DNA from: an uncultured Spartobacteria bacterium
GTDB taxonomy: Bacteria; Verrucomicrobiota; Verrucomicrobiia; Chthoniobacterales; Chthoniobacteraceae
Assembly: GCA_903929475.1 (NCBI GenBank)
Contig: CAIYUV010000074.1
Coordinates: 1-64,000, forward strand
Reading direction: 5' to 3'
Length of the DNA stretch: 64,000 nt
This document shows positions 8,645-63,868 of the stretch, piece after piece. A program made the translations under genes and the position numbers. A model generated the notes under the pieces. It saw only the letters and a list, made by a program, of their open reading frames with translations. It searched no databases and was not told the origin of the DNA. Positions within the stretch are counted from its first letter, which is position 1; each line of letters opens with the position of its first letter.

Positions 8645-11392
8645 ATGCTCACCAGCACACAGATCCGCCAGTCGTTCTTCGATTTCTTCCGCGAGAAAAA
8701 GCACACCATCGTGCCCAGCTCGTCGCTCATGCCCGATTCGCCGAACCTCCTCTTCACGAATGCCGGCATGAACCAGTTCGTCCCCATCTTCCTCGGCGAG
8801 CGCGCTGCGGATGTGAGCAAGTGGGCGGGCGCAGTCCCCTCCAGCGACACGCGCGCAGCGGACACGCAGAAGTGCATCCGCGCAGGCGGCAAGCACAACG
8901 ACCTCGATGACGTCGGCCTCGACACCTACCACCACACGTTCTTCGAGATGCTCGGGAACTGGTCCTTCGGCGACTACTTCAAAAAGGAAGCCATCGAGTG
9001 GGCGTGGGAGTTGATCGTCGAGCGGTGGAAATTTCCCGCGCAGCGCCTTTACGCGACGATCTACAACCCCGACAAATCCATCGGCGACCCCGCCGAGCGC
9101 GACGAGGAAGCGTGGAATTTCTGGGCGGAAAAATTCCGCAGCAAAGGGCTCGACCCCGCCATCCACATCGTCAACGGCAACAAAAAGGACAATTTCTGGA
9201 TGATGGGCGAAACCGGCCCGTGCGGCCCGTGCTCCGAGTTGCACGTGGACCTCACACCCGCTGGCGACACGAAAGGCGCGCTCGTGAACAAAGGCACCGC
9301 CGAGTGCATCGAAATCTGGAACCTCGTCTTCATCCAGTTCAACGCCAACCCCGACGGCACCTTCACGCCGCTCCCCGCGCAGCACGTGGACACCGGCATG
9401 GGCTTCGAGCGCGTGACCTCGATCATCCAGGGCACAAAAAACTTCACCGACTTCGCCAACGCGAAAATCTCCAACTACGAGACGGACATCTTCCGCCCCA
9501 TCTTCGACGAAATCGAAAAACTGAGCGGCAAAACCTACGGCTGCACGCTCCCGCAATCCGGCAGCACCGGCGACACCGCGCAGGAAAAAGAGGACGTCGC
9601 ATTCCGCGTCATCGCCGACCACATCCGCACGCTCAGCTTCGCCATCGCCGACGGCATCCAGCCCGGCAACAACGACCGCAACTACGTCCTCCGCCGCATC
9701 CTCCGCCGCGCCGTGAAATACGGCCGCACGCTCGGATTCAAAGAACCGTTTTTCTACAAACTCGTGGACGTCCTAGCCCGCACCATGGGCGATGTCTTCC
9801 CGAACATCCGCGAAAAACAAAAGCACGTAGCGGAAACACTGAAGCGCGAGGAGGAGGCGTTTAACCGGACGCTGGATCGAGGGATCGCGATCTTTGATGA
9901 GGCCGTTACAGAGTTGACCGCGATGCGAGGGGGCTTGTTTACGGCGAAAGACTCGCAGCGCAACACGAGTTTAATTGAAATTGAGCTTAAAGGCGCCTTC
10001 GCCTTCAAACTCTACGACACCTACGGCTTTCCGCTCGATCTCACCGAGTTGATGGCCCGCGAGCGAGGCCTCACCGTGGACACCGCTGGCTTTGAAGTCG
10101 AAATGGAGGAGCAGCGCGCCCGCGCTCGCGCCGCGCAGAAGAAACAAATCATCGAGCTTTCCCAAATCGAGACGACGGTGCCGACGAACTTCCTCGGCTA
10201 TGACGCGCTCTCGACCGAGGCAAAGGTGCTCGAAGTCGTCGCGCTCAAGGACAAGACCGCCGTGGTGCTCGATTCGACCACCGCCTACGCCGAGATGGGC
10301 GGGCAGGTGGGCGATTCCGGCGAGATCGTGCATGGCGCGGATACGTGGCGCATTTCCAATACGCAGAAGAGCGGCAACACGTGGCTGCATTTCCTCGAGG
10401 GCGTGGATGCTCCCGCCGTGGGCACGCATGTGACGCTGGCCGTCGAAGCCCGCCGCCGCGCCGCTATCCAGCGGCATCACACCGTTACGCATTTGCTGCA
10501 CTGGGCGCTGCACGAAGTCGTGAACAAAGACGCCACGCAAAAAGGCTCCAGCGTCGCGCCGGACAAGCTGACGTTTGATTTCAACAGCGCCGCACTTTCG
10601 CCCGAGCAAGTCCGCGATATCGAGCGCCTCGTGAATGAGCGCATCCTCGAAAACGCGCCCGTCGTCTGGAACGAAGTGCCCTACGCCGACGTGCGCGGGC
10701 GCGCCGACATCATGCAGTTCTTCGGCGACAAATACGGAGAGACCGTCCGCGTCGTGGACATCGGCGGATACAGCAAGGAACTCTGCGCTGGCACGCACAC
10801 CCGCGCCACCGGCGAGATCGGCCTTTTCCGAATCGCCAGCGAAGCCGCCATCGCCGCCGGAGTCCGTCGCATCGAAGCCGTCGCCGGCCTCAGCGCCTAC
10901 GATTCCGCGCTGAACGAAGCCGCGCGACTGCACGCGTTCGCCGCGAAAATCGGCGCGCCGCTTTCCGATCTGGAAAAGAAACTCGACGCCGTCCTCGCGC
11001 AGCAAAAGGAACTCGAAAAGACGCTCAAATCCGCCCAGCAGCGCGAAGCCGCCGGGCGCGCCAAATCGCTCCTCGCGAGCGCGGAGAACAACGCCATCGT
11101 CGCCAACCTCGGCGACCTCGACGGCGACAGCGTCATGCACATCGCCGAAGCGCTGAAAGGCAGCTTCCACGGCATCGTCGTCCTCGGCGCAGCCAGCGGC
11201 GGCGCAGTCACGCTCATCGCGATCGTGGGCAAAGAGTTTCAATCCAAAGTGCAGGCCGGAAAAATCATCCAGACCATCGCCCCGATCGTCGGAGGCAAAG
11301 GCGGAGGCAAACCCGACTTCGCCCGAGGCGGCGGCAAAGACGCCAGCAAACTCGCCGAAGCGCTCGCGAATGCGCGTGCGTTGATCGTCTAG
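8645..11392 (+). CDS. alaS: Alanine--tRNA ligase
   Basis: 915 residues, within the usual 850-950 range. It charges tRNA-Ala in the cytoplasm. The N-terminal class II synthetase core begins LTSTQIRQSFFDFF and contains NLLFTNAGMNQF and TGPCGPCSE. The editing domain carries the zinc-binding HTVTH (612-616) and CAGTH (714-718) motifs. The C-terminal dimerisation (C-Ala) part contains a coiled-coil-like stretch and the glycine-rich GGKGGGKPDFARGGG. Around residues 400-450 (bases 9840-9995) there is an extra segment between FDEAV and FKLYDTYGF whose codons are clearly AT-richer than the flanks. The next gene follows 5 bases downstream. Confidence 0.97.
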   Translation: MLTSTQIRQSFFDFFREKKHTIVPSSSLMPDSPNLLFTNAGMNQFVPIFLGERAADVSKWAGAVPSSDTRAADTQKCIRAGGKHNDLDDVGLDTYHHTFFEMLGNWSFGDYFKKEAIEWAWELIVERWKFPAQRLYATIYNPDKSIGDPAERDEEAWNFWAEKFRSKGLDPAIHIVNGNKKDNFWMMGETGPCGPCSELHVDLTPAGDTKGALVNKGTAECIEIWNLVFIQFNANPDGTFTPLPAQHVDTGMGFERVTSIIQGTKNFTDFANAKISNYETDIFRPIFDEIEKLSGKTYGCTLPQSGSTGDTAQEKEDVAFRVIADHIRTLSFAIADGIQPGNNDRNYVLRRILRRAVKYGRTLGFKEPFFYKLVDVLARTMGDVFPNIREKQKHVAETLKREEEAFNRTLDRGIAIFDEAVTELTAMRGGLFTAKDSQRNTSLIEIELKGAFAFKLYDTYGFPLDLTELMARERGLTVDTAGFEVEMEEQRARARAAQKKQIIELSQIETTVPTNFLGYDALSTEAKVLEVVALKDKTAVVLDSTTAYAEMGGQVGDSGEIVHGADTWRISNTQKSGNTWLHFLEGVDAPAVGTHVTLAVEARRRAAIQRHHTVTHLLHWALHEVVNKDATQKGSSVAPDKLTFDFNSAALSPEQVRDIERLVNERILENAPVVWNEVPYADVRGRADIMQFFGDKYGETVRVVDIGGYSKELCAGTHTRATGEIGLFRIASEAAIAAGVRRIEAVAGLSAYDSALNEAARLHAFAAKIGAPLSDLEKKLDAVLAQQKELEKTLKSAQQREAAGRAKSLLASAENNAIVANLGDLDGDSVMHIAEALKGSFHGIVVLGAASGGAVTLIAIVGKEFQSKVQAGKIIQTIAPIVGGKGGGKPDFARGGGKDASKLAEALANARALIV

Positions 11393-54856: not shown

Positions 54857-54928
54857 GTCGGAGCGTCGGAGCGTCGGAGCGTCGGAGCGTCGGAGCGTCG
54901 GAGCGTCGGAGCGTCGGAGCGTCGGAGC
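54857..54928. repeat. Nine perfect tandem copies of an 8-bp unit
   Basis: GTCGGAGC is repeated nine times without a single difference over 72 bases. Eight is not a multiple of three, so all reading frames are visited every 24 bases; a coding role is unlikely. Perfect identity signals recent slippage. Confidence 0.97.
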
Positions 54929-55322
54929 GTTTATAGAAGACTTTTGCGTGGGAGCGGTTCGGCGGGAAAAAGCAAGGTTTGTCTCGGAATCCGTCGAGCT
55001 TTTTCCACAAATGGGATCGTTAGCGGGGCGATTGAGGCAATGGGTGCGGGTGACGACCTCGTGCTCCAGATGGACACAACCGTGGCAGGCCGCATCATCG
55101 TGGACGCCGGCCAGGGCCCCGGAGAAACGCCAACACCCACGCCGCCCACGCCGTAGTCCAATGATTACCAAGCAAACCCATACTCCGACACTCGGCACCC
55201 TCGCCGACCAGATAACCTAGCCCGCGACACTGCTCATCACCCTGCCGTAGTAGGCGCTTCTAGCGATCACTGATTCAATCTTCCCGTAACAGATACAAAA
55301 CCAAGACACACCAAACACATCT

Positions 55323-55759: not shown

Positions 55760-55990
55760 ATGAGCACGATCACTATTCCACTAACGGAGGAAGACTTGTC
55801 TTTCCTCCGAACCTATTCGGAGGAGCAGGGGACTTCGGCGGAGGCGTTCCTCGCGCGGCAGGCGCATAATTTACGCGAGCAAATGCAGAGGCCGCTGCAC
55901 GGGGAGGTGGAGGCGGCGAGCGGGATCATTGCGCCGGAAATCGCTGGCAGGGAAGCGCACCGTGAACATCTCGAAAAGAAGCAGGCGTGA
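55760..55990 (+). CDS. Putative antitoxin of PIN module 1
   Basis: 76 residues. N-terminal STITIPLTEEDLSFLRTYSE, then EEQGTSAEAFLARQAHNLR, look like a ribbon-helix-helix DNA-binding domain (a short strand followed by two helices). The rest is a charged tail that would wrap the toxin. Its stop overlaps the toxin's GTG start (GTGA). It follows a leader shared with two further copies. Confidence 0.7.
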   Translation: MSTITIPLTEEDLSFLRTYSEEQGTSAEAFLARQAHNLREQMQRPLHGEVEAASGIIAPEIAGREAHREHLEKKQA

Positions 55991-56400
55991 CGGTCACGGT
56001 GGACATCAATGTGCTGCTGGATGTTTTCCAAAAGCGTGAACCGCACCACGTCGCATCCGCACAAGTAGTGAGTATGGTGGCAGCGGGGACGCTGGACGGG
56101 GTGTGTCCTGCGCATGGGCTGACGACACTCTACTATCTTGTGCGCAAACATGGTTCGAGGCCGGATGCAGAGGCCGCGATGGATCGGGTGCTGGGTCATT
56201 TCCAAATCGGCAACCTCGATGCTGCGGGCTGGCAGGAGGCGAGGAGGCTTTCGCTCCCGGACTTTGAAGATGCAGCGGTGGCGGCTGTGGCCAAAGCGAC
56301 GGAATCGGCCTTCATCATTACCCGGAATGTCGGAGACTTTGCGCGGTCGCCCGTGCCAGCGATCATGCCGACAGATTTCCTCAGCCAATTCGCGTTCTGA
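55987..56400 (+). CDS. PIN-domain toxin (VapC-like), module 1
   Basis: 137 residues from a GTG that overlaps the antitoxin stop. PIN-domain acids: Asp in TVDINVLLDVFQKRE, the middle LTTLYYLVRK region, Asp/Glu in LSLPDFEDAAVAAVAKATES and the final ITRNVGDFARSP. PIN toxins are Mg-dependent RNases that cut tRNA or rRNA. The mid-domain Glu usually expected after the first helix block is not obvious (AHGLTTLYYL), so activity should be tested rather than assumed. Confidence 0.85.
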   Translation: MTVTVDINVLLDVFQKREPHHVASAQVVSMVAAGTLDGVCPAHGLTTLYYLVRKHGSRPDAEAAMDRVLGHFQIGNLDAAGWQEARRLSLPDFEDAAVAAVAKATESAFIITRNVGDFARSPVPAIMPTDFLSQFAF

Positions 56401-56460
56401 AGTGCATTGCGCCGCAGGAAGTGATGAGGGATTAACTGATGATGGTGCCGCTACCACGCG

Positions 56461-56495
56461 TTGACTCTCCGGAGAAAGTCGGGCATTTTCCGCGC
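56461..56495 (+). promoter_or_regulatory. Promoter/operator leader, copy 2 (PIN module 2)
   Basis: TTGACT (56461-56466), 17-base spacer, CATTTT (56484-56489), CCGCGC, then ATG at 56496. The spacer contains the perfect 8-base palindrome CTCCGGAG inside a wider GACT...AGTC dyad, placing a likely repressor site between the -35 and -10 boxes. Similarity to copy 3 begins near 56438 and runs into the coding region. Confidence 0.65.
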
Positions 56496-56720
56496 ATGAG
56501 CACGCTTGCTGAAATTGAAAAGGCCATCGAACAATTGCCGCCGGAACAATGGGCGGAGATTCGCCGCTGGATGGAGGTGCATGAGCCTAAGCAGGGAAAC
56601 GGAGCGGCGGAGAAGCGGGTGGATTGGTCGAAGAGCGCTGCTTTGACGCATAGCCGCGACAAGGGACGGGTGCTTTCTACCGAGGAAGTCAGCAGCTTGT
56701 TTGAGGAATTGCGCGGCTGA
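56496..56720 (+). CDS. Putative antitoxin of PIN module 2
   Basis: 74 residues from the ATG at 56496, just 6 bases after the -10-like box; an ATG at 56439 would translate the promoter and is rejected. The N-terminus STLAEIEKAIEQLPPEQWAE resembles small helical antitoxins (AEI..AIEQLP...W.E+..W). A charged tail follows. No family is firmly named. The toxin starts 5 bases downstream. Confidence 0.7.
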   Translation: MSTLAEIEKAIEQLPPEQWAEIRRWMEVHEPKQGNGAAEKRVDWSKSAALTHSRDKGRVLSTEEVSSLFEELRG

Positions 56721-56725
56721 TCCTG

Positions 56726-57157
56726 ATGTTCACTGCCGATACGAGTTTCGTTTTTTCGCTGTATGGAGCGGATGTGAACACTGCATCTGCAAAGGCCCGG
56801 ATGGCAGGTGCGCTGGAGCCGCTGGTATTGACGGGATTGCATCGCTTTGAACTTGGAAACGCCCTTCGCCTCGCTGTCTATCGCGGAAATCTGCCGCCGG
56901 ATGAAGCAGGGAAGAGGCTTGCGGATTTCGACGCGGATGTTGCCGCCGGGCTCGTGACGCTGGTGGAGGTGGAATCGGTTCCGCTTTTTAATCGCGCGAG
57001 CGTTTTGTCCGAATCGCACACGGCGACGCAGGGGCAGCGTTCGATGGACATCCTACTGGTCGCTACGGCCATGGAAATGGAGGCATCTGATTTTCTAAGT
57101 TTCGATGACCGCCAGCGTGCGCTCGCTGTAGCGGAAGGGCTTCGCGTCGGGCCGTAG
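56726..57157 (+). CDS. PIN-domain toxin (VapC-like), module 2
   Basis: 143 residues. PIN acids: Asp in FTADTSFVFSLYGADVN, Glu in LHRFELGNALRLAVYRG, Asp in QRSMDILLVATAMEMEASDF and FDDRQRALA near the end. All expected acidic positions are present, so it is a plausible active RNase toxin. It differs clearly from the toxin of module 1 despite the near-identical leader, so the two modules are not simple duplicates. Confidence 0.88.
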   Translation: MFTADTSFVFSLYGADVNTASAKARMAGALEPLVLTGLHRFELGNALRLAVYRGNLPPDEAGKRLADFDADVAAGLVTLVEVESVPLFNRASVLSESHTATQGQRSMDILLVATAMEMEASDFLSFDDRQRALAVAEGLRVGP

Positions 57158-62277: not shown

Positions 62278-62979
62278 TCACGGGCTCACCGTCACCTTCG
62301 CCACGCCCGTCCAGTCGCCGTTCGGCGTGCCCTTGTCCCAGAAACGCATCCGGTATTCGCGCACTTCGGGCGTGTCGGCGGCGAGCAGCGGGCGCTCATC
62401 GTCGTAGGGGCTTTCGGTATCCACCCCCAGCGGCTCCCAGTCGCCTCCGCCGCGGCGCGATTCCATGCACACGCCCGCGTGGCCGAATTTGAAAAACTTC
62501 AGCCGCACCACCTCCGCGCTCTGGCCCGGCAGCGCCCGCACCGTGAATTTCGGCGTCGCATGTTCCGCCGCGTTCTCGCGGCCCACGATCCCCAAATCCG
62601 TCCCCAGCGACTCCGCGTAGCCCGGCTGCAATTTCAGCCTCGCCACCAGCGCGAAAATCCGCCCCAGCGCCCCCGGTGGCCGTGGTGCGACACCCGCAGG
62701 CGGCGATGGCGGCGCAAAAACGGGCATCGTCACCGCCGACTCCCCCTTTCCCGAGAGCACTGCATTCCCCGCAGCCGTCGTCGCTCTTGCAAAAGCCCGC
62801 ACCAACGGCAGACACTGCCCCAGCACAAACGCACACCAGAGCGCATCCGCGACCACCTCCGCCGCCTCCCCCGCCGGGACTCCCATCGCCGCCGCCGCCG
62901 CTGGCAGCCTGCTTGCAAAATGTTCCAGCCAGCCCGACTGCTCCGAGAGCGGCCTTGGGAAATAGTTTTGTAGTTTCAT
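62278..62979 (-). CDS. Conserved hypothetical protein downstream of a palindrome array
   Basis: 233 residues from the ATG at 62979 (KLQNYFPRPLSEQSGWLEHF). An N-terminal helical half (PAGEAAEVVADALWCAFVLG, LVRAFARATTAAGNAVLSGK) is followed by a Pro-rich stretch (FAPPSPPAGVAPRPPGAL) and a C-terminal beta domain: RIFALVARLKLQPGYAESLG, ESRRGGGDWEPLGVDTESPY, DDERPLLAADTPEVREYRMR and FWDKGTPNGDWTGVAKVTVS, a fibronectin-like ending. I recall closely similar hypothetical proteins ('KxQdYFP...RFWDKGTPNGDW') from Verrucomicrobiota and relatives; function unknown. Its upstream region carries the 21-bp array. Confidence 0.75.
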   Translation of the reverse strand: MKLQNYFPRPLSEQSGWLEHFASRLPAAAAAMGVPAGEAAEVVADALWCAFVLGQCLPLVRAFARATTAAGNAVLSGKGESAVTMPVFAPPSPPAGVAPRPPGALGRIFALVARLKLQPGYAESLGTDLGIVGRENAAEHATPKFTVRALPGQSAEVVRLKFFKFGHAGVCMESRRGGGDWEPLGVDTESPYDDERPLLAADTPEVREYRMRFWDKGTPNGDWTGVAKVTVSP

Positions 62980-63136
62980 GGGAAAGAAGAGAGACGGAAT
63001 TGCAGCCCCCGAGGAGCGGGGAAAAACACCCCGCACCGCAGTCGGCAGACGCAGTGAAGCTCCGGCCCGTCCCGGCAACCCGGCTCCGGCCCGCGAGGAC
63101 TTCCCTGCGACAAAAGGGTTCTAGCATGGAGGCGCC

Positions 63137-63400
63137 GTGAGCGTCCACAGAAAAAGCGTGGACGTCCACGGATATTCCGTGGATACCCACTGAAAAGATG
63201 TGGACGCCCACGCGTAGAATGTGGACATCCACATATTATATGTGGAAAGCCACGTATAATCTGTGGACATCCACGATCCATCAGTGGATAGCAACGTATT
63301 TGTCGTGGACTTCCACGTATCCTTCGTGGGCGTCCACCAATTACCTGTGGGCGTCCACGGATTATCAGTGGACGCCCACGCCTAATCCGTGGACGCTCCA
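63137..63400. repeat. Array of 13 palindromic 12-bp cores at exact 21-bp period
   Basis: Thirteen cores start at 63137, 63158, 63179 and so on every 21 bases to 63389. The consensus is GTGGACGTCCAC, itself a perfect palindrome; the outer GTGG/CCAC is almost invariant and the centre varies. Twelve 9-base spacers separate them; they are all different and AT-rich in GC-rich surroundings (for example GGATATTCC, ATATTATAT, GTATTTGTC). 21 bases are two helical turns, so cores fall on one DNA face. One plus-strand frame is open through all units as a heptapeptide W-T-S-T-x-x-x (63141-63413), and one minus-strand frame as x-x-I-R-G-R-P. It lies about 160 bases upstream of the hypothetical gene. Too short for CRISPR repeats; no cas genes. 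Confidence 0.95.
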
Positions 63401-63868
63401 AAAACCCCCATGAACCCTCTCCCAACATAGAAGAACCCCCATCAACCTCAAACCCCACCCACCCGGAACGCGCCCAACAAGGAGGGGGGCCGTCCCGGCC
63501 CCCAGCCAACCTCCGGGAGGCCCAGCGAAAGGCGCAACCCCAGCGATGTCACGCCGGGGGTCCCCCTGCCGGGACGGCGCCTCTCCTTACCGCACTAGCG
63601 TGGAGCACCAAAGGTGCGAACCCATACCAGCCTAGGGCACCGCCCTAGGAACCCGGTCGTTAAAAACCAAAGCCCCAAAGGGGCGCGCCAAATGGGGCCG
63701 CCCTTACAGGGCTTTGTTCATCGTGGGCGGGGGACTAGGGCGTTGCCCTAGGCTGGTATGAAGCCGGGCCGTTGGCCCTGCAAAACAGAACGGCCCTCCG
63801 CATCGCCAGCCATAGGTGCGCCTTACTGCGGCGGGTTCGCTGCAGCGCATAGGGGCTAGGCCGCGTTG
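63401..63868. repeat. Intergenic inverted-repeat element with CCTAGGGC hairpins
   Basis: CATACCAGCCTAGGGCA (63623-63639) and TGCCCTAGGCTGGTATG (63744-63760) are exact 17-base inverted arms about 100 bases apart. Each arm lies in its own hairpin: CCTAGGGC-ACC-GCCCTAGG (63631-63649) and CTAGGGC-GTT-GCCCTAG (63735-63751). GGGGCC- and AAAGGGGC-rich words fill the interior. Resembles the mosaic intergenic repeats I recall from Verrucomicrobiota and Planctomycetes. No gene is seen in the rest of this 468-base stretch. Confidence 0.75.

Follow-up and report, generated by a model that had tools for sequence, protein, structure and literature searches.

What is a run of thirteen short palindromes, spaced by exactly two turns of the helix, doing in front of a hypothetical gene, and does it belong with that gene? 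The window, the whole 64,000-nucleotide stretch of DNA analysed here, raises these questions with the following features.

63137-63400, no strand assigned: array of period 21 bp, with thirteen 12-bp cores (arms GTGG and CCAC, inner four bases variable) and twelve 9-bp spacers.
62281-62979, minus strand: family-1 gene of 233 amino acids (MKLQNYFP...), with N-terminal helices and a fibronectin-III-like C-terminal domain.
63022-63136, no strand assigned: proximal block, lying between array and gene and also present in a near copy on contig C250 (78% across an alignment of 152 positions).
63401-63838, no strand assigned: distal block, likewise present in the near copy on C250; the 91% match spans 63349-63838 and includes the last array units.
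63422-63436, plus strand: edge motif CCAACATAGAAGAAC, one mismatch from CCAACAGAGAAGAAC; it follows the array and keeps its 21-bp register.

The initial annotation described thirteen 12-bp cores and twelve 9-bp spacers with no indel in 264 bases, and this is accurate. The cores start at 63137, 63158 and so on to 63389, the step is always 21 bp, and Tandem Repeats Finder also calls period 21 at this position. Ten of the 13 cores match GTGGNNNNCCAC, a pattern with 14 matches in the window against a mean of 0.90 and a maximum of 3 in 100 dinucleotide shuffles; the end cores are degenerate, GTGAGCGTCCAC being the first and GTGGACGCTCCA the last. Each arm is conserved in its four outermost bases, GTGG and CCAC, with the inner four variable. 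All 12 spacers are distinct and most are AT-rich. Since the family-1 gene is on the minus strand the array is upstream (5′) of it, 157 bases separating the array edge from the start codon. Reading frames are open on the plus strand at 63198-63413 (71 amino acids) and on the minus strand at 62976-63509 and 62396-63232, the latter two through much of the array. Within the distal block, at 63626-63762, a CATACCAGCCTAGGGC-type sequence occurs twice in inverted orientation, and similar sequence is present at other loci of the genome, for example L027.

Does the array accompany the gene elsewhere? When the genome collection was scanned with family 1, 48 loci emerged, every one in a record whose title names Verrucomicrobia or one of its families or genera. 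The record set CANJNZ, titled Chthoniobacteraceae, is among them; the initial annotation had associated the family with this phylum. In a first test an array of period 21, 42, 63 or 84 was directly upstream in 29 of 31 loci; in the controls, none of the 31 had another period there, and an array was present in 1 of 383 other 700-nt windows. A second gene family (type L014:1875-2513) has upstream arrays as family 1 does. With duplicates removed, 65 of 80 distinct Verrucomicrobiota loci carry an upstream array (family 2, 20 of 26), whilst the controls, their windows and genes drawn from the same loci as the test cases, gave 1 of 77 downstream and 4 of 80 for other periods. For the other genes that our own simple hexamer gene finder predicts in the named loci, an upstream array occurs in 1 of 270 cases and in 0 of 92 where the intergenic gap is at least 150 nt. 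No array was detected upstream in the remaining 15 of the 80 loci at the thresholds that we set (identity 0.60, window 84), and these misses include L110, L119 and L208, at which the identity rounds to 0.60 but lies just below the cut. L114, L199 and L201 were removed as duplicates of L105 on a 60-nt signature, L114 perhaps wrongly. The proposal that the array belongs with its hypothetical neighbour, for which orthologues without any array were the point to check, is sustained by arrays of the same period upstream of 45 of the 54 distinct family-1 orthologues.

A profile comparison of the two families detected no homology between them. The AlphaFold models of both place N-terminal helices before a beta sandwich (mean pLDDT 88.4 and 85.0), and with pTM values of 0.54 and 0.51 the arrangement of the domains is uncertain. 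Pfam identifies the family-2 sandwich as a fibronectin type III domain (E 4e-6, above cut-off), and Foldseek agrees. For family 1 the Foldseek matches to fibronectin-III domains are weaker, the best E being 1.1e-3, and the Pfam search gave no match. A PHROGs search with family 2 gave weak matches only, tail proteins among them (best E 0.0043); PADLOC found nothing, and the family searches run on the cassette genes gave no Rep or Par match. In many Verrucomicrobiaceae the family-1 frame is about 30 residues longer upstream, with a repeated W-D motif. At L100 (5908-6000) and some 20 other Verrucomicrobiaceae family-1 loci an in-frame N-terminal extension, MNWDxGxWDSGxWDQPSDYF, precedes the MKRQNYYP start.

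A search of the whole source genome, from the Chthoniobacteraceae, revealed further arrays that repeat the 21-bp step with cores of other sequence. The sampled part, 424 kb, holds 11 arrays of period 21 or 42/63/84 with very different cores, one of the 11 being a weak 42-bp repeat (identity 0.64) that possibly does not belong. In stretches not picked for arrays, and with runs of N set aside, period 21 or a multiple is the commonest single period among tandem repeats of similar length. The edge motif CCAACAGAGAAGAAC follows the last unit of many arrays, in register, at 24 sites in the genome (at most one mismatch) against none in a reversed control. The motif is local, being present in 2 of 117 genomes searched, and the units that precede it are diverse: GTGGACGTCCAC, GGGATGAATCCC, AGGAATGTTCCT, AAAGACTTCTTT, CTAAAACTTTAA and CCGTAACTACGG alternating with CCAAAACTTTGG. 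The complementary arm pairs are many and unrelated (GTGG/CCAC, GGTA/TACC, GGGA/TCCC, AGGA/TCCT, AAAG/CTTT, CCGT/ACGG and CCAA/TTGG), and some unit types recur across different bacterial families. At L079 (9054-9818) and L013 (1058-1533) the spacers mostly end in A-rich runs before the G-rich arm, giving the array a polarity, and at L098 (3862-5050) two arrays of period 69 bp lie near a family-1 cassette, in addition to its 42-bp array.

At what level might such a structure act? The 56 gene-linked arrays are more self-complementary than column-permuted versions of themselves, with mean z values of -1.91 (p 3e-8) on one strand and -1.89 (p 3e-7) on the other, and no difference between strands (paired p 0.86). 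Individually, 23 of 55 arrays, weak detections included, pass the dyad permutation test. The excess is equal on both strands and a role at the DNA level is therefore favoured. Phase is broken once in the 56 arrays, despite 3,285 mismatches at 10,165 compared positions, with the caveat that detection by fixed period disfavours finding phase-broken arrays. An exact two-turn step combined with such sequence freedom indicates duplex DNA. Intrinsic curvature, calculated by a wedge model with hand-entered parameters, is no greater than in column-permuted arrays (z 0.20 and 0.08). In that model a period of 21 bp by itself bends the DNA more coherently than one of 20 or 22 bp; curvature contributes nothing further, and selection for it was dropped as an explanation.

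Complementary arms around four variable bases also resemble stems and loops, and the array could be transcribed as a leader of the gene, a ladder of hairpins affecting translation or stability. On the gene-sense strand G-T mismatches do outnumber A-C mismatches, 355 to 223, when all arrays are pooled. Taken array by array, however, the G-T excess comes to 30 against 20, better folding is seen for the sense strand in 34 of 56 arrays and both strands are equal against permuted arrays, so we set the wobble signal aside. Hairpins do not need an exact 21-base step, and Rfam gave no match above cut-off. We consider the RNA explanation unlikely; of the DNA- or RNA-level role first put forward, it is the DNA part that fits better.

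The initial annotation named a heptapeptide repeat as the rival explanation, with the frames that cross the window array on both strands in its favour. A stop-free unit of 21 bp will, when repeated, leave an open frame by chance. When frames are fixed to the edge motif in 22 arrays each is open in 8-15 and closed in 7-14; there is no Pfam match, and a repeat peptide now appears very improbable. PARCELs, presented in a section of PMC2996958 as palindromic amphipathic repeat coding sequences, are similar in having dyad-symmetric repeats of variable sequence that spread within genomes. They are coding, whereas the arrays are intergenic and keep no single frame over the 22 examples, and a PARCEL-like repeat was ruled out.

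The explanation that we prefer, with about an even chance of being correct, is that the array is a cis-acting, helically phased, multi-site DNA element that controls or organises cassettes and of which solo copies have spread through the genome. Two-fold-symmetric sites exactly two helical turns apart would all be presented on one face of the duplex, and might form a platform for cooperative binding of a candidate dimeric protein. Placed ahead of a family-1 or family-2 gene, the array probably controls or organises that cassette, expression being the presumed trait under control. Units would turn over fast by unit-wise recombination and copying between loci, with core sequence and copy number drifting, whilst selection would preserve the 21-bp phase and the symmetry.

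Which protein might bind? In most family-1 cassettes the first candidate is a small XRE-type helix-turn-helix (HTH) protein encoded before the array. Two kinds of neighbour recur among 24 long family-1 loci: ahead of the array a small HTH gene, initially noted in 14, and behind family 1 another small gene, noted in 15, whose product contains or resembles NSPASSAEMRSQL. In a profile search, 23 of 30 family-1 loci proved to have an XRE-type HTH gene on the same strand no more than 1.5 kb upstream. The HTH stop is 544-825 nt before the family-1 start, and the array therefore sits between the two genes. HTH_3 (Pfam) is above cut-off in all three HTH proteins tested. Two of the proteins encoded after family 1 were tested, and that of L120 has collagen repeats. 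This NSPASSAEM-type small protein (L113 6807-7073, L120 6780-7157) strikes us as reminiscent of phage tail-fibre parts.

Reading the array as a simple operator is weakened on two counts. The HTH profile has no match in the window cassette or in family-2 cassettes, and the units can differ where the HTH proteins are near-identical: L103 and L145 share 92% HTH identity yet 18% of array 8-mers, L113 and L124 again 92% yet 3%. Array similarity correlates less with HTH similarity (Mantel r 0.27, p 0.009) than with that of family 1 (r 0.43), and the former correlation could reflect shared descent.

That many arrays stand alone, away from families 1 and 2, also counts against cassette control. Six of the 24 edge-motif arrays are beside family 1 or 2 (one of these a fragment) and 10 have neither family next to them; contig ends truncate the other 8. 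The occurrence of arrays elsewhere in the genome had been named at the outset as grounds for doubt and is in part what we see. Sampled arrays, even so, are confined to genomes in which each family has two or more genes: five such genomes gave 22 arrays over 969 kb and four genomes with none or one such gene gave none over 568 kb, in a small sample uncorrected for phylogeny. One of the latter four, G008, has a single family-1 gene with an upstream array (L207) outside the sampled stretches.

What similar cassettes have in common is the gene and both the proximal and the distal edge block, whereas the units in between differ. Edge blocks of approximately 90-420 nt are common to solo and cassette arrays or to different solo arrays. 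The near copy of the window element on C250 (91% identity in an alignment of 491 positions) has about four units; it lacks a family-1 gene and lies alongside a different gene. These shared blocks, the near copy beside another gene, the 24 edge-motif sites and the restriction of sampled arrays to genomes with several genes of each family would suit a selfish or mobilised intergenic repeat, in which the cassette is the full element, the dispersed arrays are copies that have lost the gene, and the units are recognition or processing sites of a putative mobilising activity. A section of PMC3733652 describes a comparable arrangement, REP elements and REPtrons, as GTAG/CGTC repetitive extragenic palindromes with RAYT transposases, and the likeness lies in palindromic repeats dispersed between genes and in a gene family that accompanies them in the genomes concerned. 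The arrays differ in their exact 21-bp phase, their non-fixed sequence, their upstream-only position and linked proteins that are not tyrosine transposases. Neither family resembles a nuclease or transposase by Pfam or Foldseek. The source genome has only four Y1_Tnp matches, the nearest about 1.5 kb from an array cassette (C236), and none encodes family 1 or 2, so an associated RAYT gene is lacking. By eye there is no common tag across the cores; CGTC lies inside some, such as GTGGACGTCCAC, and is absent from CCGTAACTACGG and GGGATGAATCCC. Arrays are upstream and hardly ever downstream of genes, unlike recognition ends that flank an element, and no relative was found in viral contigs with the family-1 profile A2 or in plasmids with the family-1 protein of L032. 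A mobile repeat is a possibility that we regard as doubtful.

Turnover of units, copying between loci and the sharing of some unit types across bacterial families are likewise what a neutral minisatellite might display, its period inherited from one ancestral array, its symmetry maintained by template switching at quasi-palindromes and its gene linkage a consequence of cassette descent. Against this, two families of no detectable homology both keep the upstream array, family-2 copies at 28-40% identity included, and phase breaks are nearly absent. Neutral drift is, in our judgement, improbable, and the phased DNA element continues to be the explanation that we favour.

How do the arrays compare with known systems? 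XRE/Cro-type repressors act at tandem operator arrays, and the one-face symmetric sites beside a small HTH gene in most family-1 cassettes are similar. The arrays differ in having 4 to 20 or more sites, in sequence turnover despite a conserved HTH protein and in family-2 cassettes that give no HTH match. Plasmid iterons and partition centromeres are also direct repeats of about two helical turns; the arrays, by comparison, occupy tens of chromosomal loci with differing units and are linked to helical/fibronectin-III proteins.

CRISPR repeats are of 24-48 bp with spacers of regular size, according to a section of PMC3733652, as opposed to cores of 12 bp and spacers of 9 bp in the arrays. Full-text searches of the open-licence literature found no published description of such arrays. 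Since REP/REPtron, CRISPR and coding repeat each lack a match in a defining feature that was tested, and given the result of those searches, we rate the arrays themselves as new, with the proviso that part of them might eventually come under a known kind, the operator array. More tentatively, and with greater doubt than hope, they could represent a chromosomal repeat-plus-protein system of the Verrucomicrobiota, not described before, in which geometry is recognised rather than a fixed sequence, the helical/fibronectin-III proteins act on or diversify through the arrays, and solo arrays are dispersed targets.

It is unusual for exact two-turn spacing to persist from one bacterial family to another when the sites themselves change in sequence, and this implies that helical phase itself is selected or is set by mechanism. 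Two unnamed protein families are tied to one DNA architecture. The arrays are open to genetic testing as period, units and gene can each be altered. Several contig ends fall within or beside arrays, which may explain the poor assembly of such genomes.

Elsewhere in the window a perfect tandem repeat of GTCGGAGC, 9.2 copies, is present at 54857-54930, and at 55987-57154 there are two predicted genes, with a small gene between them, that we take to resemble PIN-type toxins.
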